The translations under genes and the position numbers were made by a program. Below are positions 2,055 through 45,275 of a stretch of 64,000 nt of DNA, piece after piece. The notes under the pieces were generated by a model that made no database searches, had not been told where the DNA came from, and worked only from the letters and a program-made list of their open reading frames with translations. Source of the DNA: Epilithonimonas lactis (lineage in GTDB: Bacteria; Bacteroidota; Bacteroidia; Flavobacteriales; Weeksellaceae); NCBI RefSeq assembly GCF_900110605.1, contig NZ_FOFI01000001.1:310001-374000 (forward strand), written 5' to 3'. The stretch's first letter is position 1. Each line of letters begins with the position of its first letter.

Positions 2055-2055
2055 A

Positions 2056-2148
2056 GGCAACTTATCCGCCTTCCACTCCCAATCTTTTTGCCTTGGCTTT
2101 TCCAGCCACAAAAAAGGATTTCCGTTCAAGTCGGGTTGCGCTTCGCAA
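2056..2148 (+). repeat. Interspersed structured repeat, copy R1 (subfamily A')
   Basis: First of eight copies of a ~90-bp intergenic element. The left end is GGCAAC-TTATCCGCC and the right end is GTCGGGTTGCGCTTCGC. Its outer arms pair as GCAAC/GTTGC, where other copies have GCAGC/GCTGC or GCGCC/GGCGC. The inner stem is AATCTTTTTG with CAAAAAAGGATT, capped by a segment containing TTTTCCAGCC. Confidence 0.8.
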
Positions 2149-2200
2149 AGTTGAAATATTTTCCATTTATTAAAATTGAGAGCAGTTTTAATCTTTGTTG

Positions 2201-2270
2201 AGTTTTACGTCTTTGCGAACCTTATAAATATTTTCAATAATGTCAAAAAAATCTTTGCGGACTTTGCGTT
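2201..2270 (+). repeat. CTTTGCG repeat, copy 1
   Basis: About 70 bp of the form ...CTTTGCGAACCTTATAAATATTTTCA... ending CTTTGCGGACTTTGCGTT. Related copies lie at 23609-23678, 45355-45430 and 45459-45528. It directly precedes fahA, so it is probably in or near its leader. Confidence 0.6.
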
Positions 2271-2312
2271 AAATTTCTGCAGGAGATAATAATCAAATCT
2301 TAAACTAAAAAA

Positions 2313-3569
2313 ATGAAATCATTCATAGAATATTCCTCAGATTCAGACTTTTCCATTCACAATATTCCTTTTGGCGTTTGTGTGTTTAATAAAGAATTTA
2401 TTGCCTGCGCCACGAGAATCGGCGACATCGTCATCGATTTGGCGACTTTGTATGACCTAGGTTATTTTGAAGAAATCACCGAAATGGACGACAATGTCTT
2501 CGAAGCCTACACCATCAACGAATTCATCGAACTTGGAAAACCAGTTACGAATAAAGTCAGAGAAAAAATACAACAGCTGTTATTGGAAGATTCACTTCTT
2601 TCAAAAGATGAACGGACGATTACAGATTGCTTCTATAATCTCGACGAAATTCAAATGATGATGCCTTTGCACATCCCCAATTACACCGATTTCTACAGCA
2701 GTATTCAGCACGCCACAAATGTCGGAATGATGTTCCGCGACCCTGCCAATGCGCTTCTTCCAAACTGGAAACATTTGCCAGTTGGTTATCACGGTCGCGC
2801 GTCTTCCATCGTTTTATCAGGCATCGACATCATCAGACCTTGCGGACAAATCAAACCGCCAGATGCAGACAAACCGATTTTCAGTGCTTCAAGACAACTT
2901 GATTTCGAATTGGAAATGGCATTTGTGGTGAACAAAAATACAGATTTGGGCGACAGGATTTCCGTTGCAGAAGCTGAAGATGCGATTTTCGGAATGATGA
3001 TTTTCAATGATTGGTCGGCGAGAGATATCCAAAGTTGGGAATATGTACCGTTGGGGCCGTTTTTAGGGAAGAATTTTGGTTCGTCTATTTCGCCTTGGAT
3101 TGTGACTTTGGAAGCTTTGAAACCTTTCAAAACTGAATCTCCAAAGCAAGAACCGGAAGTCTTGGATTATCTGAAATTTGATGGCGACAAAAATTATGAC
3201 ATCAATCTTGAAGTTTATTTGAAACCAGAAAACTCAGAAGAAAATCTGATTTCACAAAGCAATTACAAATTTATGTATTGGAATATGTTCCAGCAATTGG
3301 CGCATCACACGGTCAATGGTTGTAATGTGGAAGTTGGCGATGTTTACGCCAGCGGAACGATTTCCGGAGAAGATGAAAAATCCTATGGTTCGATGTTGGA
3401 ATTGTCTTGGAAAGGAACCAAACCAGTGCAATTGAAAAACGGCATCGAAAGAAAATTTATCGAAGACGGCGATACGGTGACGATGAAAGCTTGGTCTGAG
3501 AAAGACGGTATCCGAGTTGGGTTTGGGGAAGTTTCTGGGAAGATTTTGCCTGCAATTTTACCACAATAG
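2313..3569 (+). CDS. fahA: Fumarylacetoacetase
   Basis: Last step of tyrosine degradation: cleaves fumarylacetoacetate to fumarate and acetoacetate. The protein is 418 residues with an N-terminal SH3-like part and a C-terminal FAH hydrolase domain. The residues used by the mammalian enzyme fall at the same numbers: metal ligands Asp126 (NYTDF), Glu199 and Glu201 (LDFELEM), Asp233 (NDWSARDIQ), and catalytic His133 (IQHATN). GYHGRASS at 158-165 is also conserved. It lies downstream of hppD on the same strand, separated by a terminator and two repeats. Confidence 0.96.
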   Translation: MKSFIEYSSDSDFSIHNIPFGVCVFNKEFIACATRIGDIVIDLATLYDLGYFEEITEMDDNVFEAYTINEFIELGKPVTNKVREKIQQLLLEDSLLSKDERTITDCFYNLDEIQMMMPLHIPNYTDFYSSIQHATNVGMMFRDPANALLPNWKHLPVGYHGRASSIVLSGIDIIRPCGQIKPPDADKPIFSASRQLDFELEMAFVVNKNTDLGDRISVAEAEDAIFGMMIFNDWSARDIQSWEYVPLGPFLGKNFGSSISPWIVTLEALKPFKTESPKQEPEVLDYLKFDGDKNYDINLEVYLKPENSEENLISQSNYKFMYWNMFQQLAHHTVNGCNVEVGDVYASGTISGEDEKSYGSMLELSWKGTKPVQLKNGIERKFIEDGDTVTMKAWSEKDGIRVGFGEVSGKILPAILPQ

Positions 3570-3655
3570 TCACAAAGATTTTTCACAAAGTTCACAAGGA
3601 TTTTTTTACTTGTGCTCTTTGTGAAAAACCCTTGTGTTCCTAGTGGTTAAAAATA
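3570..3655 (+). repeat. CACAAAG/CTTTGTG inverted repeat
   Basis: Directly behind the fahA stop, TTCACAAAG-TTCACAAG is mirrored by CTTGTG-CTCTTTGTGAA around a T-rich centre. It can form a terminator-like hairpin and resembles the CTTTGTG repeat family elsewhere in the window. It does not end in a clean T tract. Confidence 0.5.
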
Positions 3656-3671
3656 TTTTAATAAATAAGAA

Positions 3672-4496
3672 ATGAAAACAATCATCCCATCCGATATTTC
3701 CGCAGTTCAACTCCAGCAAGTGATGCAAACAGCGATTGCGCCACGACCAATTGCTTTGGCAAGCACAATTAACAGCAAAGGAGAAATCAATCTTTCGCCG
3801 TTCAGTTTTTTCAATATGTTCAGCACGGTTCCGCCGGTTGTGATTATTTCACCTTCCCGACGCGTTCGTGACAATACGACCAAACACACTTTGGAAAACC
3901 TGAAAGAAGTTCCCGAATTGGTCATAGGAAATGTGAATTTCGATATGGTTCAGCAGGTTTCTTTGGCGAGTATGGAATACGAAGATGGCATTAATGAATT
4001 CATCAAATCCGGATTGACGATGAAACCAGCCGACATCGTAAAACCACCTTTAATTGTAGAATCGCCAGTTAATTTTGAGTGCAAAGTTCTTGAAATTAAA
4101 AGTTTAGGAGAACTTGGAGGCGCAGGAAATCTTGTGATTGCTGAGATTGTAAAAATTCATATCAATGAAAAATATTTGGATAAAGCGGGAAATCTGGACC
4201 AAAAACAATTGGATTTGGTCGCAAGATTAGGCGGAAATTTCTACTCCCGAAACAACGAAAGTAACATCTTTGAAGTTCCAAAACCGCTGGTGACAAAAGG
4301 AATCGGCTACGACCAACTTCCAGACGAAATTAAGCAAAGTCATATTTTCACAGGAAACGATTTGGGAATGTTGGCAAATGTGGAAATTTTACCGAGTGGT
4401 CGTTTTTCTTCGGAAAAAGATGTACATTTATTAGCTCAGAATTATTTAAAAAACAATGAAATTGAAAATGCTTGGAATGTTTTAAAATCTGACTGA
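3672..4496 (+). CDS. Flavin reductase-like (FMN-binding split-barrel) protein
   Basis: 274 residues, with the N-terminal half typical of the flavin reductase/DIM6-NTAB family: TAIAPRPIALASTINSKG, NLSPFSFFNMFSTVPPVVIIS. Members bind FMN and reduce or use it; the substrate cannot be read from sequence. The gene lies downstream of fahA, an arrangement I believe is common in flavobacteria, so a role linked to aromatic degradation is possible but inferred. Confidence 0.85.
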   Translation: MKTIIPSDISAVQLQQVMQTAIAPRPIALASTINSKGEINLSPFSFFNMFSTVPPVVIISPSRRVRDNTTKHTLENLKEVPELVIGNVNFDMVQQVSLASMEYEDGINEFIKSGLTMKPADIVKPPLIVESPVNFECKVLEIKSLGELGGAGNLVIAEIVKIHINEKYLDKAGNLDQKQLDLVARLGGNFYSRNNESNIFEVPKPLVTKGIGYDQLPDEIKQSHIFTGNDLGMLANVEILPSGRFSSEKDVHLLAQNYLKNNEIENAWNVLKSD

Positions 4497-4530
4497 TAGC
4501 CATTAAAAACTAAAAACCTTTAATTAAACT

Positions 4531-4776
4531 ATGAAAAAATCGGTGTATCAAACCATCATCAGCCTTCTGATTTTGGTGATTGTGATGTCGGTTTTTGCCG
4601 TTGTCAACATCCAGGTCAGTTTGAAATATGAAACTGAGAATATGAAAGATTGCATTTCGCTGATTTCTGGGAGAAATCTTTGTCAGGAATTGTTGGCTTC
4701 AAAAATTATTATTGTGATTTGCCTTATTGCTATTTCCGGAATGTTGAGTTTTAGAAATAAGATTGTAAGTTTATAG
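4531..4776 (+). CDS. Small membrane protein of unknown function
   Basis: 81 residues with two hydrophobic segments, about residues 9-29 (IISLLILVIVMSVFAVVNI) and 59-75, joined by a short loop with two Cys (about 41 and 51). The family is not recognised. It starts 34 bp behind the flavin reductase-like gene, so it may be read with it. The spacing and two clear membrane segments make it a likely real gene. Confidence 0.6.
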   Translation: MKKSVYQTIISLLILVIVMSVFAVVNIQVSLKYETENMKDCISLISGRNLCQELLASKIIIVICLIAISGMLSFRNKIVSL

Positions 4777-4782
4777 GATTAT

Positions 4783-5728
4783 TTAGATACATTCATTTCT
4801 TACTTTGATACCGTTTTTTTCTAATTCTTTTTTCATTTCAAGCCAAGTTCTGTCTTTTAACGTTCCAGCAGGATAAATATCTTGTTTGAAATTTTTAGTA
4901 ATTATTCTTAAAATATTCGCTTGTTTATGCTGTGTTTCATAGACGATTTCTTCAATGTCCGAAATTCTGTAAATTTTCTTTTTCCAAAAAAAAATAATGA
5001 TTTTTAACAACAAAGAAATTTTTAGATTTTTCAAAATAATTCATTGAAAATACATTCAGTAAAAACCAAAAAATAGAAAATGGAACATAAATTTTCAACT
5101 GATTGAATTTAGAAAGTTTGCTATCTGTAAGTAATATCACATAGATGCAACAAAGTATTAATGACCACATCATTATTCCTCTGAATGAAAATATTGGATT
5201 TCCTTTAAACTCCTGAAAGTTTTCATTCTCTATTTCATTACTTCTAATTCTAGAATTAATTATTTCAAAACTTTCCTTTTTATCAACTACTATTTGTTTG
5301 ATGAATAATTTGATTTCCCAACTGTTGGAATACATATCATCAAATATGAATAAAGTTTGATTGTCATTGAAAACTAATGTTGAAACTTCCATTTGATAAG
5401 AAAAAAAACCAAATCCTTTTTTGCCTGTAAGTATTATTCTTTTCACGTCTTTCCAAAAGTAGACTTTAGGTCCTATTGTTATTTTTTCTTTATCAACAAC
5501 GATTTTTCGAGATTTTTGATAATAATTTTTCACGTAACTAAATCCCAAATAGTATGTAAAAAAACTGAAAACAGGTAATAAATACGTTTTAATTTTATGA
5601 TTATTCAAAGGCCAATCCTTAATAAAAATGTATATTAGAAAAGAAGCTAATGCAGCAAAAAAAATTGCAGAAAATAAAACTGAAAACCAAATAGTTTTAC
5701 GGTTTTGCTTTGAAGTTATTTTAGTCAT
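4783..5728 (-). pseudogene. Membrane protein with PH-like domain, broken by a frameshift in an A9/T9 run
   Basis: Read from 5728, the protein has N-terminal membrane segments (about residues 14-35 and 48-65), a soluble part (IVVDKEKITIGPKVYFWKDVKRI) like a bacterial PH/YcxB domain, and further membrane segments. The frame then slips at a run of nine A (plus strand, 4986-4994) and ends after LEKENLQNFGH. In the next frame the natural continuation is WKKKIYRISDIEEIVYETQ through LEKNGIKVRNECI, stopping at 4783. Eight instead of nine A restores one protein of about 314 residues with a second PH-like repeat. This may be a sequencing error, a true mutation or slippage. Function unknown. Confidence 0.65.
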
Positions 5729-5740
5729 AAGTCAACTATT

Positions 5741-7489
5741 CTAAATCACCGTATCCCCATCAGGCGAAACCACCTGCGCCTTATAAAGCAAAGAATAATA
5801 ACCATTTTTCGCAAGCAATTCCTGATGTGTTCCTTCTTCCACAATCAATCCGTGGTCCATCACGATGATTTTATCTGCTTTTTCAATGGTCGAAAGTCGG
5901 TGTGCGATGAGGATTGATGTTCTGTTTTTTGTGATTTTCTCTGTCGCTCTTTGGATTAATTTTTCGCTCTCGTGGTCGATGGATGAGGTCGCTTCGTCCA
6001 GAATCAGAATTTTCGGGTCGGAAAGATAAGCTCTTAAAAATGACAATAATTGTCTTTGTCCAAGGGAAATGGACGAACCTCTTTCACTCACCACATAGTC
6101 GTAACCGTTTGGCAAACTTTCAATAAATTCATCAACGCCGATTTCCTTTGAAGCTTTTTTGACTTGTTCCAAAGTAATGCTTTCGTCGCCCAAAGTCAGG
6201 TTTTCAAAAATACTGCCGTGGAAAAGGAAAACGTCCTGAAGAACCACGCCAATGTGACTTCTTAAATTATACAATTCATAGTCGCGAATATCAACATCAT
6301 CCAACATTATCTTTCCAGAATTGATGTCGTAAAGTCTTGTAATCAAACTGATAATTGTAGATTTTCCCGCGCCGGTTGCACCAACGATTGCGACAGTTTC
6401 ACCCGAATTAACCTTAAAATCAATGCCTTTTAAAACCAATTGTTTCTCGTCGTAAGCAAAGTGAACATTCTGAAATTCAATTTTTCCATCAAAATGGTCT
6501 CGGGCAATCGTTCCGTTGTTCGGCATCGCCTGGTCTTCGTCCATTACGCCAAGAACTCTTTCTGCGCCGACAATTCCTCGCTGAATATTATTAAATCTAT
6601 CCGCAATCTGTCTCAACGGCCGAATCAACATATTAATGAATTGAATAAAAGCGATAATAACACCTGGCGTAGATTTGATAAAACCACCGTAAAATAGGAT
6701 GAATCCAATAAAAAGCGACGAAATCAATTCGACAACCGGAAAAAATAATGAGAAGATGAAAACCGTTCTCAACAAAGCTTTCTTCAGTTCGATATTAATT
6801 TTATCAAACTTCGTAAACTCGGCTTCCTGTCTGTTGAAAACTTGAATCAACGGCATTCCTGCCAAACGTTCCTGCACAAAACTATTCTGCGTCGAGGTCC
6901 AGCTTCTTTCCAATCCGAAAGCCGTTTTCAGTTTTTTCTGAAAAACTCTTGTAATCACCACCATCAGCGGAAGAATCGCCAATGAAATTAGACTTAGATG
7001 CGTGTCCACCTGAAACATCGCAAACAACACCATCACAATTCTCAGAATGTCTCCGAAAACCATTAGGAATCCGTCTGTGTAAACCGTCGCAATTGTTTCT
7101 ACATCGCCGACCGCTCTTGTTACCAAACTTCCAATCGGGGTTTTGTCAAAAAATGCCGTTCTGAAATAAATCAGTTTGTGATAAAGTCTTTCTCGGATGT
7201 CACGAATCACATTTTGAGAAATGAAATTTGAGAAATAAACCAGGAAAAAATTCAGAATCGTCTCTGCAACCACCAGTCCGATGAGCAGATAGATGTGCTT
7301 CATTAATTGAGATTTGTCTCTCAGCTGAACGATGTCAATATCCACAACATCTTTGGTAAGAATCGGTCGGTAAGTGGAGACAATTGCCAGAACGATGGAG
7401 ATGACCAGCGTGATGATGAACCACGAACGGAATTTCATCCCAATTAGAAATAGTCTTTTTACAATATCCCAAGTCGTTTGTTTCTTCAT
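5741..7489 (-). CDS. ABC exporter with fused permease and ATPase (MsbA/MdlB type)
   Basis: 582 residues: an N-terminal six-helix transmembrane domain (to about residue 315) followed by an ATPase domain. Visible motifs are Walker A GATGAGKST, signature SLGQRQL, Walker B ILILDEATSSID and the H-loop IAHRLST. It works as a homo- or heterodimer exporting lipids, peptides or drugs; the substrate is not readable and no partner half-transporter is adjacent. An exact -7 box lies just upstream. The frameshifted membrane gene begins 12 bp behind its stop. Confidence 0.92.
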   Translation of the reverse strand: MKKQTTWDIVKRLFLIGMKFRSWFIITLVISIVLAIVSTYRPILTKDVVDIDIVQLRDKSQLMKHIYLLIGLVVAETILNFFLVYFSNFISQNVIRDIRERLYHKLIYFRTAFFDKTPIGSLVTRAVGDVETIATVYTDGFLMVFGDILRIVMVLFAMFQVDTHLSLISLAILPLMVVITRVFQKKLKTAFGLERSWTSTQNSFVQERLAGMPLIQVFNRQEAEFTKFDKINIELKKALLRTVFIFSLFFPVVELISSLFIGFILFYGGFIKSTPGVIIAFIQFINMLIRPLRQIADRFNNIQRGIVGAERVLGVMDEDQAMPNNGTIARDHFDGKIEFQNVHFAYDEKQLVLKGIDFKVNSGETVAIVGATGAGKSTIISLITRLYDINSGKIMLDDVDIRDYELYNLRSHIGVVLQDVFLFHGSIFENLTLGDESITLEQVKKASKEIGVDEFIESLPNGYDYVVSERGSSISLGQRQLLSFLRAYLSDPKILILDEATSSIDHESEKLIQRATEKITKNRTSILIAHRLSTIEKADKIIVMDHGLIVEEGTHQELLAKNGYYSLLYKAQVVSPDGDTVI

Positions 7490-7507
7490 ATTATCTCAAA
7501 TGCAGTG

Positions 7508-7515
7508 CAAAAATA
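7508..7515 (-). promoter_or_regulatory. -7 promoter box of the ABC exporter
   Basis: TATTTTTG on the minus strand matches the Bacteroidota TAnnTTTG box, 19 nt upstream of the ATG at 7489. This predicts a leader of only about 12 nt. The -33 element is weak. Confidence 0.5.
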
Positions 7516-7644
7516 AGGAAATTCGATGGGAAGTAATGTTAAAGTCGTACAGCGATTTCTATGGTTTGAAAATAATTATTTCACAAGCAAAAAGTCATAG
7601 AGATAGTCTCTCGGTAGGAAATACTTGAAATGTTTTTAGATATA

Positions 7645-7710
7645 GTCGCAGAGCGACTTTCCATTGGTAGAAGATAATCATAACGTTTCCACGCAGAGTC
7701 GCGGAGCGAC
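7645..7710 (-). repeat. REP-like hairpin pair left of the transposase
   Basis: Two hairpins with 5-bp stems and three-base loops: GTCGC-AGA-GCGAC at 7645-7657 and GTCGC-GGA-GCGAC at 7698-7710. On the minus strand, ACCAAT or ATTGGT lies next to the hairpin. They mirror the pair at 8278-8338, so the pairs face outward from the transposase. Degenerate relatives may lie at 7543-7555. Confidence 0.75.
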
Positions 7711-7728
7711 GACCAATTAGTACTAATT

Positions 7729-8196
7729 TCAAATCAATTCTTTAAAAACATATTTCTCATTATAATCAATTTCAAATTTCTCTAAAAAATCAACATATTC
7801 TTCACGAAACGATTTTTTATAATGGTGTTTTTCCTGATTTTCAATATATCTTATTACATCATTGATTTGAGATTTTCCATACGAAAACGCGCCAAAACTA
7901 TCTTGCCATTCAAATCGAAAGGGAATAAAATTATTTTCATTAATCCATTTGGAGGAAATACTTTTCACTTCCTGAACTAAATCTGATACTGATTGATTGG
8001 GTCTTAAACCAATTAAAATATGAATGTGGTCTGGCATTCCGTTGATAGATAACAACTTGTGTTTTCTGTTTTGGATTACGCCTGTGATGTATTTAAACAA
8101 ATCATCTTTCCATTCATTCTGAATTAATGCTTGGCGAAATTTCACAGCAAAAACCAATTGAATATGGATTTGGGTGTATGTATTATTTTCAGCCAT
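7729..8196 (-). CDS. REP-associated tyrosine transposase (IS200-like, Y1/HUH)
   Basis: 155 residues of the single-strand transposase fold. The HUH motif is His57-Ile-His59 (MPDHIHILIG) and the likely nucleophile is Tyr117 (INDVIRYIENQEKHH). Such enzymes nick and join single-stranded DNA at small hairpins. It stands alone, with no TnpB, between inverted pairs of GTCGC-NNN-GCGAC hairpins, the arrangement of a RAYT with its REP elements. The gene looks intact. Similar triloop hairpins at 12881-12945 may be further products of this enzyme or a relative; this is inferred. Confidence 0.88.
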   Translation of the reverse strand: MAENNTYTQIHIQLVFAVKFRQALIQNEWKDDLFKYITGVIQNRKHKLLSINGMPDHIHILIGLRPNQSVSDLVQEVKSISSKWINENNFIPFRFEWQDSFGAFSYGKSQINDVIRYIENQEKHHYKKSFREEYVDFLEKFEIDYNEKYVFKELI

Positions 8197-8277
8197 TTGA
8201 GTTTTTTTTAGATTAATATTAAATCTAATTTAATGAAATTTCATTAATAATTTTCAAGGATTGATAACCAATAGATC

Positions 8278-8338
8278 GTCGCTCCGCGACCGTTATAGGG
8301 ATTTTTTAGTTGCTACCAATAGACTGTCGCTCTGCGAC
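8278..8338 (+). repeat. REP-like hairpin pair right of the transposase
   Basis: GTCGC-TCC-GCGAC at 8278-8290 and GTCGC-TCT-GCGAC at 8326-8338, each preceded by ACCAATAGA. The ACCAAT flank lies on the plus strand here and mainly on the minus strand at the left pair, so the two pairs are inverted around the gene. Confidence 0.75.
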
Positions 8339-8411
8339 TCTTTTGAAATGCTCATTATCTTTTGACAGGTTGTTGCTCAGCACTATTAAAAGTGCAGGAG
8401 ATCAGGAGAAT

Positions 8412-9146
8412 TTAAAAATCATACCCAACATCTACCAAAAAAAGACCTTGAGCCGGAGCGGAAACGCCAGCTGAATTCCGATATTTGTCTTCAATGATTT
8501 TTCGCAAATCGTTGGGCTGTAATTTTCCGATTCCGATTTCTACCATTGTTCCGACAATCGCTCTTACCATATTTCTCAAAAATCGGTCAGCAGAAATAGT
8601 GAATTTCAATTGATTTCCTAGCTGTTCCCATTCGGCTTTGTAGATTTTGCAGATGTTGGTTTTGTTGTCTGTGTGGAGTTTGGCGAAGCTTGTAAAATCA
8701 TCGTATTCGAAAAGGATTTTGCAGGCCTCGTTCATCGCATCGATGTTCAATGGTTTTTGACGCCAGGTTTGCCAAGACGAATTTATAGTGAACGGATTTT
8801 TCTCTGTTGAAATATAATATTCATAAGTCCGGAAAGTCGCACTGAATCGCGCGTGCATATCGGCTGGAACTTCAAAAATTTGTTTGATAGAAATATTTTC
8901 CGACAAAAAGGAATTGAGTTTGTAAACCAGATTTTCATCGAGATTTTGCTCCGTTTCGAAGTGTGCAAACATTTTTTTTGCGTGTACGCCAGTGTCAGTT
9001 CTTCCTGCGCCGGTTGTTTTTATCGGCTCTCTCAGAATCGTGGACAAGGCTTTTTCCAATTCTTCCTGCACAGAAATTTCGTTGGGCTGGATTTGATAGC
9101 CAAAAAAAGAAGAACCGTCGTAAGCAAACTCTATAAAATATCTCAT
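8412..9146 (-). CDS. truA: tRNA pseudouridine synthase A
   Basis: Makes pseudouridine at positions 38-40 of the tRNA anticodon arm. 244 residues, usual length. The catalytic motif GAGRTDTGVHA places the nucleophile Asp at residue 51; the C-terminal RFLRNMVRAIVGTMVEIG is also typical. It faces away from the small membrane protein gene at 9230. Confidence 0.96.
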   Translation of the reverse strand: MRYFIEFAYDGSSFFGYQIQPNEISVQEELEKALSTILREPIKTTGAGRTDTGVHAKKMFAHFETEQNLDENLVYKLNSFLSENISIKQIFEVPADMHARFSATFRTYEYYISTEKNPFTINSSWQTWRQKPLNIDAMNEACKILFEYDDFTSFAKLHTDNKTNICKIYKAEWEQLGNQLKFTISADRFLRNMVRAIVGTMVEIGIGKLQPNDLRKIIEDKYRNSAGVSAPAQGLFLVDVGYDF

Positions 9147-10047: not shown

Positions 10048-10091
10048 GTTGGAGAGTTGGAGCGTCGGAGGATTTGAGAGTTAGACTTAAA

Positions 10092-10174
10092 GTCCCATCG
10101 GGACGATTATATCTTAGCATAGGAATTTATTCCTATGAATGGAGATTATGCAAGCATAGGAATATATTCCGATG
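10092..10174 (+). repeat. Small intergenic hairpins (GTCCC-ATC-GGGAC and CATAGGAAT dyads)
   Basis: GTCCC-ATC-GGGAC (10092-10104) is followed by CATAGGAAT-TT-ATTCCTATG (10118-10137) and a second, one-base-different copy at 10155-10174. These short dyads resemble REP-type elements. They lie between the phosphoesterase and Smr genes and could be transcribed with both. Confidence 0.6.
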
Positions 10175-12647: not shown

Positions 12648-12796
12648 GGGCAGCTTGATCCGTCTTCCACTCCCAATCTTTTTGCCATAGCTTTTCCAGC
12701 CACAAAAAAGGATTTCCGTTCAAACCTAACGAAGTGGTTCATCGATTCAGATTAAAATAAATAAAATTAGAGATAAGCCGGGCTGCAGCTTCGCCA
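12648..12796 (+). repeat. Interspersed structured repeat, copy R2 (subfamily A, with insertion)
   Basis: Left arm GGGCAGC..., inner stem AATCTTTTTG/CAAAAAAGGATT and right end GGGCTGCAGCTTCGCC match subfamily A. Between CCGTTCAA and AGCCGGGCTGC about 52 bp are inserted, including CTAACGAAGTGGTTCATCGA. The same insertion at the same site is found in R5. Confidence 0.8.
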
Positions 12797-16494: not shown

Positions 16495-16542
16495 TTTCTA
16501 TTTTATTTTAATGTTCGATTGATTGGGAAAACTTTGATTTTT

Positions 16543-16637
16543 GCGAAGCGCGCCCCGGCCTGAACGGAGCTCTTTTTGTAAGCCTTGGAAAAGCCTTGGC
16601 ACAAAAAAGCGGGAGTGGAGGACGGATAAAGGCGCCC
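16543..16637 (-). repeat. Interspersed structured repeat, copy R3 (subfamily B), inside the his operon
   Basis: Read on the minus strand it begins GGGCGCC-TTTATCC and ends CGGGGCGCGCTTCGC; outer arms GCGCC/GGCGC pair. The inner part is subfamily B, CCCGCTTTTTTGTG against CAAAAAGAGCTCC. The adjoining CGTTAGGTTTGGGCGCC with GAACCA further out is also found next to R7. It lies between hisH and hisA. Confidence 0.8.
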
Positions 16638-16670
16638 AAACCTAACGAATTGGTTCGACGTAGTTAATTT

Positions 16671-23211: not shown

Positions 23212-23362
23212 ATTCAAATTCTAATTGTGGCGCAATATATAAATTAATTTTTTATTTCCAAATCAAAATGTCTATGGAAATTCAAAATTTTTATAGAAAT
23301 AATGTATGATTTTTATTAGCTGATTTCTACGATTCGAAAAACCTACAATTCATCGATTATTG

Positions 23363-23475
23363 GGGCAGCTTTATCCGCCTTCCGCTCCCAATCTTTTTTG
23401 CAGACCATTTCAGTTAAGTTGAACTTGAGTACAAGCAAAAAAGGATTTCCGCTCAAGTCGGGCTGCAGATTCGCC
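23363..23475 (+). repeat. Interspersed structured repeat, copy R4 (subfamily A, exchanged loop)
   Basis: Left GGGCAGCTTTATCCGCC, right GTCGGGCTGCAGATTCGCC. The inner stem is longer (AATCTTTTTTGC with GCAAAAAAGGATT), while the loop that elsewhere reads TTTTCCAGCC is replaced by an unrelated AT-rich segment. Arms conserved with loop changed supports the hairpin as the selected or copied unit. Confidence 0.8.
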
Positions 23476-25217: not shown

Positions 25218-25366
25218 GGCGAAGCGCGCCCCGACTTATCTCAAGTTTAGATTTTTTTTATTTGAATCGATGAACCACTTCGTTAGTTTTGAACGGAGCT
25301 CATTTTTTTGTGGCTGGAAAAGCAATGGCAAAAAATAGCGGGAGTAGAAGGCGGATAAAGGCGCCC
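25218..25366 (-). repeat. Interspersed structured repeat, copy R5 (subfamily B, with insertion)
   Basis: On the minus strand: GGGCGCC-TTTATCCGCC at the left, CGGGGCGCGCTTCGCC at the right, inner CCCGCTATTTTTTG against CAAAAAAATGAGCTCC. About 50 bp including CTAACGAAGTGGTTCATCGA are inserted after CCGTTCAA, the same segment and site as in R2. Confidence 0.8.
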
Positions 25367-30105: not shown

Positions 30106-30179
30106 AGTTTGGTTTGGAAGATGGAAGTTAGAGGATGGAAGTTAAATCTGATATTTAAGGGATAAATTTGATTTGAAGA

Positions 30180-30271
30180 CGAATCTGCAGCCCGACCTGA
30201 GTGGAAATCCTTTTTTGTGGCTGGAAAAGCGCAGGCAAAAAGATTGGGAACGGAGGGCGGAAATAGCTGCC
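30180..30271 (-). repeat. Interspersed structured repeat, copy R6 (subfamily A)
   Basis: Minus strand: GGCAGC-TATTTCCGCC at the left and GTCGGGCTGCAGATTCG at the right. Inner stem AATCTTTTTG/CAAAAAAGGATT, loop with GCTTTTCCAGCC. Preceded at 30118-30145 by GGAAG-rich words of another family. Confidence 0.8.
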
Positions 30272-30327
30272 ATAATAATTTTGATTAATAATCTATCAAA
30301 GATAAAAATTTTGGTACAGTTTTTTAA

Positions 30328-31978: not shown

Positions 31979-32023
31979 AGTTTAATTTTTATTTGACTAC
32001 GTCGAACCACTTTCGTTAGGTTT

Positions 32024-32110
32024 GGGCAGCTTTATCCGCCTTCCGCTCCCAATCTTTTTGCCTAGCTTTTCCAGCCACAAAAAAGGATTTCCGCTCAAGT
32101 CGGGCTGCGA
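32024..32110 (+). repeat. Interspersed structured repeat, copy R7 (subfamily A)
   Basis: GGGCAGC-TTTATCCGCC ... GTCGGGCTGCG with inner stem AATCTTTTTG/CAAAAAAGGATT. Immediately left is GAACCACTTTCGTTAGGTTT, a segment also beside R3 and, inverted, inside R2 and R5. Confidence 0.8.
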
Positions 32111-32172
32111 GCAATTCTACGTCCCAAAAGATAATAAATACTTTGTACTTAAATACATTTTACTTTTTACAT

Positions 32173-33489: not shown

Positions 33490-33609
33490 CTATAATTCAA
33501 ATTTTGATTAATAGGATTTCATCCCGTCCTTGATTAAATCGTTCCTTCGGAACTGTGCTTGAATTTTAACTTCAGACTTCCTTCCTCCATCTTCCAACTT
33601 CCTGCTTTA

Positions 33610-38541: not shown

Positions 38542-38555
38542 TTGTTAAATAAAGG

Positions 38556-38630
38556 TAGCCGGACGATGGAAGCTGGGTGTTTTACGCTACAGAATTCTTC
38601 CATCTTCCCGCATCCGACTTCCAGCATTAT
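38556..38630. repeat. GGAAG/CTTCC inverted repeat inside the efflux operon
   Basis: GATGGAAG (38565-38572) pairs with CTTCCATC (38597-38604), and CGGA.../...TCCG outside it. It lies in the 114-bp gap between the ATPase and the first permease. Related purine/pyrimidine-rich words are at 30118, 33575, 41078 and 54965. Confidence 0.5.
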
Positions 38631-38655
38631 CATTTATCACTTATAACTATCAATT

Positions 38656-41073
38656 ATGCTAAACAATTGGCTTAAAATTGCCCTCATCAATTATAAAAAG
38701 AACTGGCTCTCCACGATTATTAATCTTTTTGGATTGACGATAGGACTGACTGGATTTATGCTCATCCTGATGCATTGGAATGACGAAGAATCTTTCGAAA
38801 GATGGAATCCGGGAAAAGATAATATCTATTATTTCCAGACTTATCACAAACCAGAAAATTCCTACGGAAACAACATTTCTATTCCGATGGCAAAACGAGC
38901 GAAGGAATTAATTCCTGGCGTTCAAGATTATGTTTTGTTCAATGGTTCCGGAATTGGTCTAAAGATGACGACGAAAGTGAAAACAGTTTTCCAAAAAGAA
39001 GGAATGACTGCAACAGAAAGTTTTTTCAAATTGTTTCCGTTCAAATTGGTTTCCGGAAGTTATAAAGATGCTTTGAAGGGCGAAAGCGCAATTGCTCTTT
39101 CTACAGAAGCAGCAAAAAATCTGTTTGGTAAAACCAATGTTGCTGGCGAAAGTGTAAAATTCGATAACAAAAATTATGTCGTAACCGCAGTTTACGAGTT
39201 GCCGAAAGAAAACAGCCAGATCAAGCCCGAGTTCGTCATCCATCCTTCTATGGAACAGTTTAAGGGTGATGAAAAAAATTGGGGCAACTTCAATTATGGG
39301 TCGTTTTTTATGCTGAAACCCGGAACAGACCCGAAGGTTGTGCAGCAAAAATTTGTGAAAGATGTTTTTGAATATCGCGCAAGTCTGGATAAAGATTCTG
39401 CAGGAATGACCATTCAGCAATATCTTGACCTTTACGGTCCCACGGACAGCATTCTTACACCATTGGTTGAAATAAAACTCCATGCAAAGGCGTCTTGGTT
39501 TGGTCCGGTAGACTTCAAGACTTTGATGATTTTGTTTACACTTTCTGTTTTGATTGTGATTTTGTCAGCTATTAATTTCATCAATCTAAAAACAGCACAA
39601 GCCTCTCAAAGAGCAAAGGAAATCGGCGTGCGAAAAGCCATCGGAAGTACAAAAACCAATCTCGTTTTTCAATTTCTAATGGAGACATTTCTAATTTGTA
39701 TGGCTTCTTATTTATTAGCTTTAGCTTTAACAGAACTGCTTTTGCCGAGTTTCAACAAGTTCTATGACAAAGAAATGGTGATGAATGACTGGCATATCTA
39801 TTTCTACTCATTTGCGATGGTTCTTATGGTAACATTGATCTCGGGATTGATTCCTGCAACTTACCTTTCCAACTTCAAAGCGATAGAAACTCTGAAAGGG
39901 AATTTTGCCAGAAGCAAACACGGCGTTTGGCTGAGAAACGGGATTTTGACTTTACAATTGATTATCTCTTCATTCTTTATCATCGGTGGATTAATTGTAA
40001 ATCAGCAGGTGAACTATATGATGAATAAAGACCTTGGTTACAGCGGAAAACAGATTATGATGATCAACTTCAGCGAAAGCGATCCGAAACCTTGGCTGAA
40101 ATATGAACGTTTAAAAACTGAAATGAAAAAAATCAAAGGTGTAGTTGATATTTCTTACGGAGAAGCAGTTCCCGGAAATGGAAGGAGCAGTTCGTCAAAT
40201 ATGGATTATAAGGACAAAAGTATCCAAGGTCAGCACGGTTCCATGGATTATAATTATCTGAAATTCATTAATGTAAAACTGAAAACAGGCCGTTGGCTGA
40301 ATCCGAATCTTTCATCAGACACCATCAATAATGTGATGGTTAATGAAGCTTTTGTAAGAAAATTCGGTTGGAAAGATGAAGACGCTTTGAAGAATGAGAT
40401 CAGACCTGGATTTGACAACAAAAATTATAAAATTGTAGGCGTTGTAAAGGATTTCAACATCCGAAGTTTGAGAACAAAAGTAGAGCCGATCATTTTTTTC
40501 CACTATAGAGAAACCGAATGGAAGAAATTCAATGTTTATAATATTCAGTTGAAAATTAATCCTAATGACATCGACGGAACTGTAAAAAGACTGAAGGCCT
40601 ATTGGCAGAATAATGTAGAACGAGGTTATCCTTTTGACTATTATTTTCTAGACCAACAGTTTGCAAAAACCTTTGAGAAATACCAAAAACAACAAACGCT
40701 TTTTACCATCCTGAACGCAATGGTTTTAATGGTAGCCTTACTCGGATTGTTTGCTTTATCATCACTGATGATAGAACAAAAACTGAAAGACGTCGCCATC
40801 AGAAAAACGCTTGGCGCTTCAGACGGAACTTTGATTGTCGGATTGACAAAACAATTCCTCTGGATTACTTTAATTGCGGTTATCATAAGTATTCCAATCA
40901 GTTATTATTTGATGAATGAATGGCTGAAAGATTTCGCTTACCGCATTGATATGCCGGTTTTCCCGTTCGTCTTGAGTTTGATTTCATTATTGATTTTGAC
41001 ATTCGCAGTAGTAAGCGTTAAAGCATATCAAGCCACAAAAGTGAACCTTGTGAAATATCTGAAATACGAGTAA
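38656..41073 (+). CDS. ABC permease, long FtsX/MacB type (first of two)
   Basis: 805 residues, twice the length of simple MacB permeases. N-terminal membrane segment (about 20-40), periplasmic MacB_PCD-like domain, first FtsX block near 285-420 (KTAQASQRAKEIGVRKAIGS), a fourth/fifth segment around 432-455, another periplasmic domain, and a second FtsX block near 680-800 (IEQKLKDVAIRKTLGAS). It is a tandem paralogue of the next gene, with near-identical ends. Probably extrudes a lipid, peptide or drug; substrate unknown. Confidence 0.9.
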   Translation: MLNNWLKIALINYKKNWLSTIINLFGLTIGLTGFMLILMHWNDEESFERWNPGKDNIYYFQTYHKPENSYGNNISIPMAKRAKELIPGVQDYVLFNGSGIGLKMTTKVKTVFQKEGMTATESFFKLFPFKLVSGSYKDALKGESAIALSTEAAKNLFGKTNVAGESVKFDNKNYVVTAVYELPKENSQIKPEFVIHPSMEQFKGDEKNWGNFNYGSFFMLKPGTDPKVVQQKFVKDVFEYRASLDKDSAGMTIQQYLDLYGPTDSILTPLVEIKLHAKASWFGPVDFKTLMILFTLSVLIVILSAINFINLKTAQASQRAKEIGVRKAIGSTKTNLVFQFLMETFLICMASYLLALALTELLLPSFNKFYDKEMVMNDWHIYFYSFAMVLMVTLISGLIPATYLSNFKAIETLKGNFARSKHGVWLRNGILTLQLIISSFFIIGGLIVNQQVNYMMNKDLGYSGKQIMMINFSESDPKPWLKYERLKTEMKKIKGVVDISYGEAVPGNGRSSSSNMDYKDKSIQGQHGSMDYNYLKFINVKLKTGRWLNPNLSSDTINNVMVNEAFVRKFGWKDEDALKNEIRPGFDNKNYKIVGVVKDFNIRSLRTKVEPIIFFHYRETEWKKFNVYNIQLKINPNDIDGTVKRLKAYWQNNVERGYPFDYYFLDQQFAKTFEKYQKQQTLFTILNAMVLMVALLGLFALSSLMIEQKLKDVAIRKTLGASDGTLIVGLTKQFLWITLIAVIISIPISYYLMNEWLKDFAYRIDMPVFPFVLSLISLLILTFAVVSVKAYQATKVNLVKYLKYE

Positions 41074-41152
41074 AGATGGAGGTTGGAAGCTGGAAGCTGG
41101 AAGTTTTTTAGCATTGTAATCAGACTTCCATCTTCCCGCACCCAACTTCCAA
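41074..41152. repeat. GGAAG/CTTCC repeat between the two permease genes
   Basis: GGTTGGAAGCTGGAAGCTGG is followed by CAGACTTCCATCTTCCCGCA and AACTTCCAAT, giving imperfect inverted pairing. It occupies most of the 110-bp gap and resembles the element before the first permease, so it may have been duplicated with the gene. Confidence 0.5.
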
Positions 41153-41183
41153 TCCAAAATCATTTAATTATCATCCATCAATT

Positions 41184-43610
41184 ATGATTAAGAACTGGCT
41201 CAAAATAGCATTCATCAATTACAGAAAAAACTGGCTTTCCACCATTATCAATATTTTGGGATTGAGTGTTGGTCTGTGTGTCTTCCTGTTGATATATATC
41301 CATTGGCAGGATGAAAAGTCTTATGAACAATGGGTTCCCAACAATGAAAATATTTATTTAGTCGAGAATCATATTTCCAGTTTTGGAAATATGTCACAAT
41401 CAAGCTATCCGGAATTGTATGTTTCAAAAGAGAAATTTCCAGAGATTGAGGATTACACGATTGCTAATATTTGGGGTTGGTATAAAACGAGATTGGTTGC
41501 GGGCGAAAATTCCAGCTATTCCACAACTGGACAAGTTTCCAGTCAGTTTTTCAAATTTTTCCCATTCGAGACAGTTGTAGGCAATATCAATAATGCATTA
41601 ACAGATAAGTCAAAAATCGCATTATCGGAAAACACAGCGAGGCAATTATTTGGCGACGATTACAAAAACAGTATTGGAAAAACAGTCAAGAAAGACCAAA
41701 ATGGCAATCTTTACACAGTTTCTTTCATATATAGATTTCCTGATGAGAATTCAGTTTTTAAAGCAGATTATCTAACCTTGGAAAATCAACCAAAAGATGA
41801 TACGCAGTGGATGAGCTATAGTTTCTTAGGTCTTTTTAAAGTAAAAGCGGGCACGGACATTCAAAAGCTGGAAGAGAAGTTATCCAAACAACAGCAATAC
41901 CACGAAGAGATTCTTTCTAAAAAATGGGGCGCAGAGGTGGATAAAAAAAATCCTACCAAAGTATTTTTGACGCCAATTACCAAAATGAAATTAGACGCAA
42001 AAGGCGATGGAATCTCAAAAGGTGATAAGAAATCTTTGAAGATATTATTAGGATTATCCATTCTTATTTTGATTTTGTCAGGAATCAATTTGATTAATCT
42101 AAAAACCGCACAATCTGCTCAGCGTGCGAAAGAAGTTGGTGTTCGCAAAACAATGGGAAGCTCTAAGGGCAGTTTGGTGATTCAGTTTCTGATAGAAACT
42201 TTCATTATTTGTCTGGTTGCTTACTTTATCGCTTTTGCTTTGGTCGAATTGCTTTTACCATCGTACAACAAATACTTGGACAAAGAAATTAAACTGAGCG
42301 ACCCGAATATTTTCGTCGGTTCAGCAGTTTTATTGATTCTATTTGCATTGTTTGCAGGGATTTTACCGGCGACTTATTTATCAAATTTCAAACCTATCAA
42401 TACATTAAAAGGTAATTTTTCCCGAAGCAAACACGGTGTTTGGTTACGAAATTCAATCCTGACCTTGCAATTGATAATCTCTTCATTTTTCATCATTTGT
42501 TCGTTGATAATTCATTCTCAAGTTGACTTTATGATGAAGAAAGATTTGGGTTTCAAAGGGAATCAGGTCATTCAAATCGATTTCAAAAAGACCAATTATA
42601 ATGAGAAAGATTATGATGTCAAAAAGTATGAATTGCTGAAAAATGAAGTCAGAAAAATCGCTGGTGTTGTGGAAACCACAGGTTCTGTACAATCTTTGGG
42701 AATGGGGCTTCGGAATGCATCTATTGCAAAATCCGCAAGCGACACTACAAAAATTGTCAACAATGTAGCAGTCGGCGGCATCGAAGAAAATTACTTCCGA
42801 TTCTATGATATGAAGATGGTCGCAGGTAATGACCTCAATTGGAAAAAAACGTCGGACACCATCAGCGGAACTGTTGTGAATGAGACATTTGTTAGAAATA
42901 TGGGCTGGAACAATCAGCAGGCCATCGGGAAAGAAATCCTGCCTGGATGGGAAGAAAAGAAGAAATACAAGATTCTAGGCGTGGTGAAAGATTTCTATTT
43001 CGGTGGAGTAGATAAGCCCATTGATGCTGCCGCTTTTTATAATTACGATAGAAATTGGGCGAAAAACAGTATGACCAATCTCCAAATCAGGCTGGACGGA
43101 AACGACATCAACGGAACCATTGAACGTATCAAAGAATTTTGGCTTACAAAAGCTGAGCCTGGTTATCCATTTGATTATCAATTCATAGACAAGCAATTCG
43201 CAAAAACCTTTGAGAAATTCCAAAAACAGCAGACGCTTTTCACAACTTTGAATATCGTGGTTTTGGTGGTCGCATTATTAGGATTATTCGCCTTATCATC
43301 ATTATTAATAGAACAAAAGCTAAAAGACGTCGCCATCAAAAAAATCTTGGGCGCAGATGAGAGAACCATCATTTGGGATTTGACCAAAAGATTTTTAATA
43401 ATCTGTATCATCGCAGTTGTATTCAGCATTCCCGTCAGTTATTATGCAATGAACGAATGGCTGAAGGATTTCGCTTACCGCATCGATATGCCGGTTTGGC
43501 CTTACGCTCTGAGTATGATTTCTTTATTGATTTTAACCTTCATTGTCGTGAGTTTTAAAGCTTACCGCGCCACAAAAATCAGTTTGGTTAAATATCTGAA
43601 ATACGAATGA
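41184..43610 (+). CDS. ABC permease, long FtsX/MacB type (second of two)
   Basis: 808 residues with the same plan as the preceding gene: N-terminal membrane segment, MacB_PCD-like domain, first FtsX block (KTAQSAQRAKEVGVRKTMGS), middle segment (KHGVWLRNSILTLQLIISSF, nearly identical to the paralogue) and second FtsX block (IEQKLKDVAIKKILGAD). The periplasmic parts have diverged most. The two may pair as a heterodimer around one ATPase; this is inferred. Confidence 0.9.
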   Translation: MIKNWLKIAFINYRKNWLSTIINILGLSVGLCVFLLIYIHWQDEKSYEQWVPNNENIYLVENHISSFGNMSQSSYPELYVSKEKFPEIEDYTIANIWGWYKTRLVAGENSSYSTTGQVSSQFFKFFPFETVVGNINNALTDKSKIALSENTARQLFGDDYKNSIGKTVKKDQNGNLYTVSFIYRFPDENSVFKADYLTLENQPKDDTQWMSYSFLGLFKVKAGTDIQKLEEKLSKQQQYHEEILSKKWGAEVDKKNPTKVFLTPITKMKLDAKGDGISKGDKKSLKILLGLSILILILSGINLINLKTAQSAQRAKEVGVRKTMGSSKGSLVIQFLIETFIICLVAYFIAFALVELLLPSYNKYLDKEIKLSDPNIFVGSAVLLILFALFAGILPATYLSNFKPINTLKGNFSRSKHGVWLRNSILTLQLIISSFFIICSLIIHSQVDFMMKKDLGFKGNQVIQIDFKKTNYNEKDYDVKKYELLKNEVRKIAGVVETTGSVQSLGMGLRNASIAKSASDTTKIVNNVAVGGIEENYFRFYDMKMVAGNDLNWKKTSDTISGTVVNETFVRNMGWNNQQAIGKEILPGWEEKKKYKILGVVKDFYFGGVDKPIDAAAFYNYDRNWAKNSMTNLQIRLDGNDINGTIERIKEFWLTKAEPGYPFDYQFIDKQFAKTFEKFQKQQTLFTTLNIVVLVVALLGLFALSSLLIEQKLKDVAIKKILGADERTIIWDLTKRFLIICIIAVVFSIPVSYYAMNEWLKDFAYRIDMPVWPYALSMISLLILTFIVVSFKAYRATKISLVKYLKYE

Positions 43611-43735
43611 GAATCCGAAGGATTCCAATATAAGTAGCCGTAGGTGAAACCTATGGAGACAAACAACAATAAAATTCCCATCCATTGGAGGGGTGGCAAA
43701 AATTAAAAATTTTTGACGGGGTGGTTTATACAGCC
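43611..43735. repeat. Cluster of small hairpins between permease and TolC genes
   Basis: GAATCC-GAA-GGATTC (43611-43625) starts at the base after the permease stop; CCGTAGGT-GAA-ACCTATGG (43638-43656) has the same GAA loop. Then a GAGGGGTGGCAAAAATT/AATTTTTGACGGGGTGG unit. None has a clean T tract, so these look like dispersed elements rather than a terminator. Confidence 0.55.
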
Positions 43736-43750
43736 AATAAATAAAAAACA

Positions 43751-45034
43751 ATGAAAAAACTATTCTTCATATTATTAATCAACCTTTTCCCGGCACAAAC
43801 CTGGACTTTGAAACAATGTCTGGATTACGCCTCTGCCAATCATCCTTTGGTGAAGCAATCGTCGGTCAACATTCAAAAAAATGACCGATTGGTTTCCGCG
43901 TCCAAAGGAATGCTGTTGCCGTCTGCAGATGCCGGAATCAACCACAATTACAACTTCGGAAACGGCATCAATCCGCAGAATAATCAGCGTGAAAGCATCA
44001 ATACGCAAAACGACAATTTCTACGCACAAGCCAATTGGGAACTGATGAACTGGCGAAATTACCTCAATATTTCATTGTCCAAAATCAATCGCGAAACCTC
44101 AACTTTCCGAATGAAGCAAGCGCAAAATGAGGTGAAACTGAATGTCATCCAAATGTTCTTCAATTACCAAAACAACAAAAGTTGGCTGGATGTTCTGGAA
44201 ACCCAAATCTCCGGAATCGAAGACCAAATCAAGCGCACCGAGAAAGAAGTGGAAATAGGAAACCGACCAAAAAGTGACGTTTACGACATCAAGGCTAACC
44301 TCGGAACATTGCAGGAACAATGGGTTTCCGCAAAAAATTCCAGAGATTTGTCCAAGATTAATTTGCTGAATGCTTTGGCCATCACGACCGATTCTCTGGA
44401 TTTCAAAATGGAAGACGATGCGTTGGCGCATTCTAATTTCAACGACGCGGATTTTGTGAAAAATCTCCTCGAAAAAAATCCGGCTTATCAAACGATTTTG
44501 ATGGAAATCAAAGCCAATCAAAAAAACATTGCCATCGCAAAATCTGCCTATTTGCCGACGCTGAACGGCTCTTACACTTGGTCGAGTTTCTACAGCAAGA
44601 CTTTGGGCGAATCGGCGGATGCATTTTCTGACCAATTCAAAAGGAACAAAAATCAACAATTAGGTTTCGGACTCAATATTCCGATTTTCAATAAATTACA
44701 AGTAAAAAATAATATCGAGATTGCGAAACTGAACGTCATCAATTCCAATTATGACAAAGAAATTGTGATTAATAATCTTACGCAAACCATCAATTCCATC
44801 AAGGCACAATTCCAGAATTCCGAAGAAAAATACACGTTGCTCCAAGCCAATTTCGAAAACCAAAAACTCTCTTTCCAAAAATCCGAAGAGAAATACAAAG
44901 AAGGCTTAATGGACGCTTACACCTTCTTCGTCGTCCGAAACAACTGGCTACAAGCAAATTACAATCTCATCAACAGCAAAAACGAAGTCATCCAACAAAC
45001 CGAACTTTTGAAAGTTTTCGAATCCGGATTTTAA
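43751..45034 (+). CDS. TolC-family outer membrane efflux protein
   Basis: 427 residues: signal peptide (about 1-16), two OEP repeats with long coiled-coil helices (LKQCLDYASANHPLVKQSS; ATN-like KSAYLPTLNGSYTWSS; EEKYKEGLMDAYTFFVVRNNWLQANYNL). Forms a trimeric channel with the adaptor. Last gene of the efflux operon; a terminator follows at 45129. Confidence 0.9.
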   Translation: MKKLFFILLINLFPAQTWTLKQCLDYASANHPLVKQSSVNIQKNDRLVSASKGMLLPSADAGINHNYNFGNGINPQNNQRESINTQNDNFYAQANWELMNWRNYLNISLSKINRETSTFRMKQAQNEVKLNVIQMFFNYQNNKSWLDVLETQISGIEDQIKRTEKEVEIGNRPKSDVYDIKANLGTLQEQWVSAKNSRDLSKINLLNALAITTDSLDFKMEDDALAHSNFNDADFVKNLLEKNPAYQTILMEIKANQKNIAIAKSAYLPTLNGSYTWSSFYSKTLGESADAFSDQFKRNKNQQLGFGLNIPIFNKLQVKNNIEIAKLNVINSNYDKEIVINNLTQTINSIKAQFQNSEEKYTLLQANFENQKLSFQKSEEKYKEGLMDAYTFFVVRNNWLQANYNLINSKNEVIQQTELLKVFESGF

Positions 45035-45128
45035 AATTAAAAAATAATTGTTACCTAAACGAAGTCAGTCTGAGCCGAGTCGAAGACTTTAACCCCCAAT
45101 TCAAAACATTCATTATATTATTTTCTCG

Positions 45129-45166
45129 AATCCCTCTGATGGCTCACACATCGGAGGGATTTTTCA
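45129..45166 (+). terminator. Terminator of the efflux operon
   Basis: AATCCCTCTGATG pairs with CATCGGAGGGATT (13 bp, one G-U) around a seven-base loop, followed by TTTT. Confidence 0.8.
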
Positions 45167-45180
45167 TTTGATTAAATTTA

Positions 45181-45275
45181 GGCGCCTTTTTCCGCCTTCC
45201 ATTCCCGCTATTTTTAGCCTACCCTAAAACCAGCCACAAAAAATGAGCTCCATTCAAGTCGGGGCGCGCTTCGCA
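45181..45275 (+). repeat. Interspersed structured repeat, copy R8 (subfamily B)
   Basis: GGCGCC-TTTTTCCGCC at the left, GTCGGGGCGCGCTTCGC at the right; inner CCCGCTATTTTTAG against CAAAAAATGAGCTCC; loop with AACCAGCC. Outer arms GCGCC/GGCGC pair. Confidence 0.8.

Follow-up and report, generated by a model that had tools for sequence, protein, structure and literature searches.

Diverged copies of the Flavo-1 motif in Epilithonimonas lactis: covarying arms, few G-U pairs and tips replaced in place

The window analysed here is a stretch of 64,000 nt from Epilithonimonas lactis (contig NZ_FOFI01000001.1, positions 310,001 to 374,000) and possesses eight copies (R1 to R8, Table 1) of a dispersed intergenic element which, as set out below, is related to the Flavo-1 motif of Rfam (RF01705). 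A preliminary description made from the letters of the window had reported these eight copies as a hairpin repeat of about 90 nt with co-changing arms. A covariance model built on alignment A1, which comprises 32 copies of the A and B subfamily types from the same genome (R1, R3, R4, R6, R7 and R8 included, R2 and R5 excluded), locates all eight where they had been placed, with E-values of 7e-33 to 3e-14, while no ninth copy was found in the window by this model, the next-best match having an E-value of 0.2. Some details of the description need amendment. The outer arms GCAGC/GCTGC are present in four copies (R2, R4, R6, and R7) rather than five, the length of about 90 nt does not apply to R2 and R5, each being interrupted by a 53-nt insert and hence longer, and the inner stem given for subfamily B (CGCTA/TGAGC) reads CGCTT/GAGC in R3. 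The recognisable motif lies on the purine-rich strand, which is the strand used by Rfam and is opposite to the one on which the element was first described.

The element had been left without a family name. An Rfam scan of the window at curated cut-offs gave no match, while a relaxed search matched the minus strand of R7 to RF01705 over its whole length. In this relaxed search five copies scored 27.5–41.4 bits, all aligning over positions 1–76 of the 76 of the model, with the other three unlisted at E ≤ 1; none of the eight reaches the gathering cut-off of 42 bits. The genome itself has at least 131 RF01705 matches at E ≤ 0.01, 75 of them above the cut-off (best 150 of 1067 candidates scored). 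A model of 37 canonical copies (alignment A3, with no window copy and with seven of its 37 rows from other genomes) ranks R4, R7, R8, R6, R1, and R3 first (E-values 4e-14 to 5.3e-8), followed by R2 (0.0019) and R5 (0.031), with one unrelated match (0.024) between the latter two. In the reverse direction, the A/B model recovers 34 of the 37 canonical loci at E ≤ 0.0086. The relaxed match, the above-threshold matches in the genome and the reciprocal models together supply the missing name, and the subfamilies did not turn out to be unrelated sequences. Judged by homology, the window copies are a diverged sister group of Flavo-1, and by the Rfam threshold they are non-members. They share with RF01705 the end-to-end fold with its A.G mismatch, a GAA/GGA-type loop and a two-pair layer, as well as the GGA loop, the AATC/GATT stem and a T-rich upper stem. 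They differ in their outer arms (GCAGC, GCAAC or GCGCC as opposed to AGC) and in having listed scores below 42 bits. Flavo-1 is also filed as RNA (Rfam type: Gene; sRNA), whereas the reading proposed here leans to DNA.

Table 1. Flavo-1 copies and associated inserts of the window, with strand given as that of the purine-rich (Rfam) motif
Feature	Window positions	Strand	Characteristics
R1	2047..2147	-	Subfamily A; outer arms GCAAC/GTTGC; A1 model 111 bits; Flavo-1 29.7 bits
R2	12648..12786	-	Subfamily A; split by 53-nt insert; A1 model 79.8 bits
Insert in R2, 53 nt	12723..12775	.	At stem/internal-loop junction CTT^GA (Rfam strand); ends uncertain by a few bases
R3	16542..16645	+	Subfamily B; outer arms GCGCC/GGCGC; hisH-hisA spacer; A1 model 90.4 bits
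R4	23355..23474	-	Subfamily A base with long tip; A1 model 91 bits; Flavo-1 41.4 bits; A3 model E-value 4e-14
R5	25224..25366	+	Subfamily B; split by 53-nt insert; A1 model 55.9 bits
Insert in R5, 53 nt	25238..25290	.	Same fold position as in R2
R6	30179..30280	+	Subfamily A; A1 model 118 bits
Insert at outer edge of R7, 29 nt	31995..32023	.	Not present at this site in either G015 or G013
R7	32016..32116	-	Subfamily A; A1 model 112 bits
R8	45172..45275	-	Subfamily B; two-pair layer AT/AT; A1 model 93.5 bits

The claim that the arms change together is borne out in both alignments. In A1, 99.1% of 700 pair cells hold standard pairs, eight pairs have changed on both sides and there are 42 two-sided cells against a shuffled mean of 9.9, with none of 500 shuffles as high, while structures slid along the alignment are 41–52% paired with 0–1 two-sided cells. 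Half of the six unpaired cells fall in R1, the outer arm of which is one base out of register. In A3, 97.3% of 776 cells are paired and 124 are two-sided, compared to a shuffled mean of 41.4 (again none of 500 as high) and to 0–17 with slid structures. Other measures do not rise above the control, namely further pair types (9 versus 9.9 in shuffles for A1, 15 versus 19.9 for A3) and, in A3, the count of pairs altered on both sides (9 versus 8.0, with 141 of 500 shuffles as high). For A1, we suppose this to be due to the shuffling itself generating G-U types. The absence of covariation, which had been named as a refuting outcome, was not observed in these alignments under shuffle and slide controls.

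The co-change extends beyond what was first described. Of the 32 A/B copies, 20 have A.G as their internal mismatch and 12 have G.A, with no other type, and all 37 canonical copies have A.G; on the strand first described the A.G form is a C.T mismatch, and its swapping in step was not part of that account. The two-pair layer occurs as GT/AC, AC/GT, GC/GC, and AT/AT. Taking outer arms, mismatch, one U-A/C-G pair, two-pair layer and inner stem together, the 32 copies present 16 combinations, the concentric layers being reassorted while the arms of each layer remain matched.

The second feature of these stems is the scarcity of G-U pairs. None was found in the 700 cells of A1 and four in the 776 of A3 (4/1476 together), as opposed to 16 of 214 pairs in ten distinct tRNAs from the same stretches (Fisher p 8e-12, with cells treated as independent though they are not). 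The A-C cells, which would be G-U if read from the complement, amount to 2 for A1 and 11 for A3 (17 and 14 tabulated pairs respectively). It had been proposed that the fold is that of an RNA or of single-stranded DNA, and since G-U pairs are near absent we lean to DNA, the evidence from orientation and folding being weak or mixed. With the purine-rich strand, DNA parameters recover more of the consensus pairs (515/694 in A1 and 584/755 in A3) than RNA parameters (376/694 and 374/755). Flavo-1 may be a resident structured-DNA repeat whose selected form is the folded hairpin, either as a cruciform or as a single strand, a reading to which we give about an even chance. If the element does act as DNA, an Rfam family has been misfiled and the search for its role misdirected. 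Covariation that is strong while G-U pairs are few would also be a simple test applicable to other orphan motifs.

The possibility that Flavo-1 is a real RNA, either a small RNA or an element of untranslated regions with a folded transcript that is bound or protects mRNA ends, has several of the same observations in its favour and appears unlikely to us, the scarcity of G-U pairs standing against it. Strong covariation is expected of such an RNA, as is conservation of the base in place (see below), and the purine-rich internal loops carry G.A-type mismatches, which are known from structured RNAs. Gene calls made with a simple longest open reading frame (ORF) method place 27 of the 33 elements in the compared region of this genome (G000) between co-directional genes, compared to 100 among the 183 spacers that measure 100 nt or more, and read-through transcripts are therefore likely. 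The evidence against such an RNA is indirect. Besides the few G-U pairs, the element is found in both orientations, and in 19 of the 27 co-directional spacers of G000 the Rfam strand runs antisense (14/20 and 12/19 in the relatives G015 and G013, with shared sites). Promoter and terminator patterns on the Rfam strand are also rare: among 30 canonical loci, window copies excluded, TAnnTTTG was found upstream in two and T5 downstream in three. Neither of the two papers found to name Flavo-1 ascribes a function to it. Flavo-1 was entered as RNA 'y', cis-regulatory 'n' and Bacteroidetes in the table of Weinberg et al. (2010; PMC2864571), and PMC9723704 reports that several 5′ transcribed regions of Flavobacterium psychrophilum coincide with Flavo-1 hits. 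The latter report also describes the hits as indistinctly sense or antisense of transcribed regions, with many outside them, and as giving no clue to function.

Comparison of orthologous sites covered 444–456 kb in each of three genomes (G000, G015, and G013). Long aligned blocks of these regions are collinear, with identity to G000 of 91.5% (G015) and 89.4% (G013). Three hidden Markov models identified 33, 30, and 30 elements respectively in these regions. For the 33 elements of G000, 22 are present, 6 absent and 5 without an anchor in G015, while 20 are present, 7 absent and 6 without an anchor in G013; absences are overcounted, at least two such calls being wrong on reading (G000 360180 and G013 186224), and at least one absence per relative is a miss of this kind (G000 360180). 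Sites of the element differ between species. R1, for example, is absent at its site in G013, G004, and G015 and present in G018, while R6 is identical over 98 of 98 aligned element positions in G015 and likewise in G013. Where the element is missing, the site is occupied by other repeats or the spacer cannot be aligned. It is worth mentioning that at the R7 site (window 31979–32172) G004 and G018 carry a different palindrome, TTAACGCAAAGGCGCAA..TTGCGCCTTTGCGTTAA, instead of Flavo-1.

In some of the A/B copies the tip is replaced in place. Of 42 orthologous pairs, 33 could be parsed and nine could not, and the tip was judged to be replaced in nine of the 33, at the same internal loop. These nine cases represent four loci (G000 194023, 227666, 237098, and 366886), each counted twice, and one locus with a 28-nt insertion, which is not a true replacement. 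The base layers of G013 are those of G000 at three of the four tip-replaced loci, and at locus 366886 both arms have also changed in the two-pair layer and at the mismatch. Two apparent one-sided changes of the outer arms are parser artefacts, the change sitting in a bulge. Among the A/B copies that could be parsed, a short TCC..GGGA tip is present in five of 13 in G013 (6 unparsed) and in none of 20 in G000 (2 unparsed) or 19 in G015 (0 unparsed). Four of the five short-tip sites could be matched to sites in G000 or G015, where the outer arms are unchanged and the tips differ. At the R6 site of G004, a subfamily B core lies within the same outer arms. Such exchange in place is a natural record of traffic among dispersed copies, and it opens to testing the question of what acts on the hairpin.

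Small insertions were also encountered in these elements. A sequence of 28–29 nt, GACTACGTCGAACCACTTTCGTTAGGTTT and its kin, lies at the edge of R7 in G000 and is absent there from G015 and G013, while sequences of this type occur at the element-internal junction TCCC^AATC in G018 (two sites), G004, and G013. The 53-nt inserts of R2 and R5, both at CTT^GA, partly resemble this 28-mer. All of these positions are junctions between a stem and an internal loop or the outer edge, which does not prove targeting, since inserts at other places may have been removed by selection or overlooked. The element may evolve as a folded DNA object, in which layers and tip are exchanged as units, small elements insert at stem/internal-loop junctions, and the folded DNA is the substrate of an exchange or insertion activity, a suggestion made tentatively and with more doubt than conviction. 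At the R8 site of G013, an insert, GGAGTTTATCCTGAGCCTGTCGAAGGG, is located within a Flavo-1 internal loop, and presumably resembles a widespread short repeat.

The base of the hairpin appears to be conserved in place. Near-equal-length orthologue pairs number 19 (G000-G015), 6 (G000-G013), and 8 (G013-G015), with 3, 14, and 14 in the other length class, spacers above 1200 nt being excluded from these counts. In the near-equal-length pairs, substitutions in the stem base amount to 19/1098, 4/348, and 3/464 in the same order, compared to 127/2294, 62/855, and 102/954 in the flanks and 32/447, 16/188, and 14/190 in the tip. The tip is the fairer control of the two, as this class was picked for having few gaps in the element. 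An unconditioned check, using the best ungapped match of 28-nt pieces and excluding elements below 75 nt, gave 39/1120, 156/1120, and 143/1176 for the base and 113/980, 215/1008, and 179/1008 for the flanks. Conservation of the base relative to the flanks is strong in equal-length copies and weak over all copies. The preliminary description had argued for a selected or replicated fold; selection is supported by the covariation and, less strongly, by the base being kept in place, while replication is neither shown nor excluded.

According to the model favoured here, the diverged Flavo-1 elements would be resident chromosomal intergenic repeats that act as a folded DNA hairpin. The conserved base, comprising the outer arms, the A.G or G.A mismatch, two purine-rich internal loops and the two-pair layer, would be the recognition part, possibly bound by a host protein, and the tip beyond the GGA/GGGA loop the exchangeable part. 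Copies would mostly be inherited in place, with the tip, and at times the layers of the base, overwritten through exchange with other copies, either via the folded hairpin or through short tracts of conversion. Overwriting of this kind would have both arms change together. The co-change of arms with few G-U pairs, the retention of the base while the tip is replaced, and the many copies in genomes where a Y1 transposase was not found (see below) are new here; a literature search, with supplementary files and most subscription journals lying outside its reach, found neither tip exchange nor a DNA role described for Flavo-1.

A number of results weigh against this model. Scarcity of G-U pairs would be equally expected if the transcripts of both strands were selected or if the copies derived recently from a small number of matched masters. 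The tRNA control is limited in size and differs in kind, and the cells are not independent. Folding of the pyrimidine-rich strand recovers as many or more consensus pairs with RNA parameters as with DNA parameters (506 versus 500 of 694 in A1, 435 versus 366 of 755 in A3). The antisense excess may be regional, because the elements lie mostly on one strand whatever the direction of the genes, those on the minus strand in G000 being 15 of 17 beside plus genes and 6 of 10 beside minus genes. Within stretches, the association of element strand with gene strand is not significant (Fisher p 0.15 in G000, 0.26 in G015, and 1.0 in G013). In the other length class the divergence of the base roughly equals that of the flanks (for G000-G013, 49/328 and 28/376 versus 152/1560), which is partly misalignment and partly real replacement of the base, and in the unconditioned check the contrast between base and flank shrinks to 1.5–3-fold, with the base still better kept. 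Gene conversion could also produce apparent conservation of the base without selection. Finally, the analysis turned up neither a binding protein or enzyme nor a new insertion.

With regard to mobility, the genome has a single match to the Y1_Tnp domain, a Y1 transposase resembling the REP-associated tyrosine transposases (RAYTs; REP, repetitive extragenic palindrome), at window 7729–8196 (-). Four GTCGC-GCGAC hairpins flank this gene, two per side (7645–7657, 7698–7710, 8278–8290, and 8326–8338), an arrangement that resembles a REPtron in that the Y1 gene has its own REP type at both sides. The Flavo-1 copies nearest to it, R2 and R1, are more than 4 kb off. Flavo-1 could be a non-autonomous transposable element, of the REP or miniature inverted-repeat transposable element (MITE) kind, that is still moved, for instance by this very enzyme, and its high copy number, its dispersal and its presence or absence at orthologous sites are in keeping with this. 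We consider it improbable, as the hairpins beside the Y1 gene are not Flavo-1 and as six of the 12 genomes (from 53) without a Y1_Tnp match are rich in Flavo-1, examples being G001 and G021 with at least 90 and at least 109 matches; a RAYT as the required mobiliser was therefore rejected, with the caveat that most of these genomes are drafts in which the gene may hide. In low-copy or distant genomes, no transposase was evident by eye beside the element at any of the 16 loci inspected out of 30, judged from ORF starts only and with no family search, and no clean empty site or target duplication was found among the orthologous sites examined. One 97-nt A-type copy had no match among plasmids (72,556 records) or phages (50,697 records), and two exact canonical patterns were absent from viral contigs, a weak negative, such patterns being strict and having had no positive control there. 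A mobiliser carried within a long element bounded by two copies was also rejected: among the 75 best matches of the genome, seven pairs of copies are separated by less than 5 kb, and in the two that were examined, each of about 2.77 kb, the enclosed and the neighbouring genes are housekeeping-like by eye.

Flavo-1 resembles REPs and their paired form, the REPINs, in being an intergenic palindrome with more than 100 copies and co-changing arms. It differs in that no RAYT is flanked by it here and in that many copies occur where Y1_Tnp was not found. It is also longer than the 20–40 bp given for REPs in PMC3733652. Intergenic repeats like the enterobacterial repetitive intergenic consensus (ERIC) and MITEs are likewise imperfect palindromes of around 100 nt found between genes in both orientations; unlike these, Flavo-1 has its tip replaced in place, and no target duplication was found for it.

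A further candidate is a recombination site read as a folded single strand, like the attC site of integrons, which likewise forms an imperfect hairpin whose unpaired bases are conserved and whose tip varies; the exchange of tips in Flavo-1 would fit such a site. We regard it as very improbable. GTTRRRY is one of the two attC end motifs, and neither it nor the other, RYYYAAC, was seen by eye in the eight copies, and the two close same-strand pairs examined enclose ordinary genes rather than cassettes. That attC-like DNA can surface in a search for RNA motifs is nonetheless documented by OTH-22-1 (PMC8632094, where the RYYYAAC motif also appears).

Flavo-1 is widespread in the genus, being present in all 23 genomes searched with at least 46 to 124 matches each (E ≤ 0.001). 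These copy numbers are lower bounds, as the searches scored at most 150 of about 1000 candidates, with 130 in each genome of the genus and 15 in each of the phylum. In an even draw across the phylum, at least 44 of 296 genomes had a match, 36 of them above the cut-off, the absences being soft due to the few candidates scored and the stricter filters; none of 14 control genomes had one. In several low-copy distant genomes, inspection by eye shows the core hairpin within a larger fold. It is enclosed there by an outer stem, for example GCGTT/AACGC, and is frequently joined by a side hairpin in the place of the A-rich bulge of this genus. As to a bias by replication strand, the two half-chromosomes of G015 hold 55-/26+ and 16-/28+ elements at a break chosen afterwards (permutation p 0.006 in a scan of antipodal breaks), but a split at dnaA gives 22+/25- and 32+/46-.

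The spacer between hisH and hisA (window 16495–16670; L070–L089), in which R3 resides, is readable in 20 of the 23 genus genomes and contains Flavo-1 in four of these. Ten of the 20 have instead an unrelated CACAAAAG palindrome (AACCACAAAAG..CTTTTGTGGTT) and five an unrelated CTCGCAGATT palindrome (TCTCGCAGATT..AATCTGCGAGA), with none of the three repeats in one. In G019 this spacer also has an additional transposase-like ORF, as judged by eye.

The window has other dispersed repeats. Those of the CTTTGCGAACTTTGCG/CACAAAG kind are located at 2226–2270, 3556–3651, 45383–45427, and 45483–45527, three of them directly past the Flavo-1 copies R1 and R8. Repeats of the CTTCCATCTTCC type, of about 27 nt, are found at 33577, 38597, 41125, and 55053. 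There is also a sub-threshold match to the Acido-Lenti-1 RNA at 10091–10137 (-), with 33 bits versus a threshold of 37 (E-value 0.0011).

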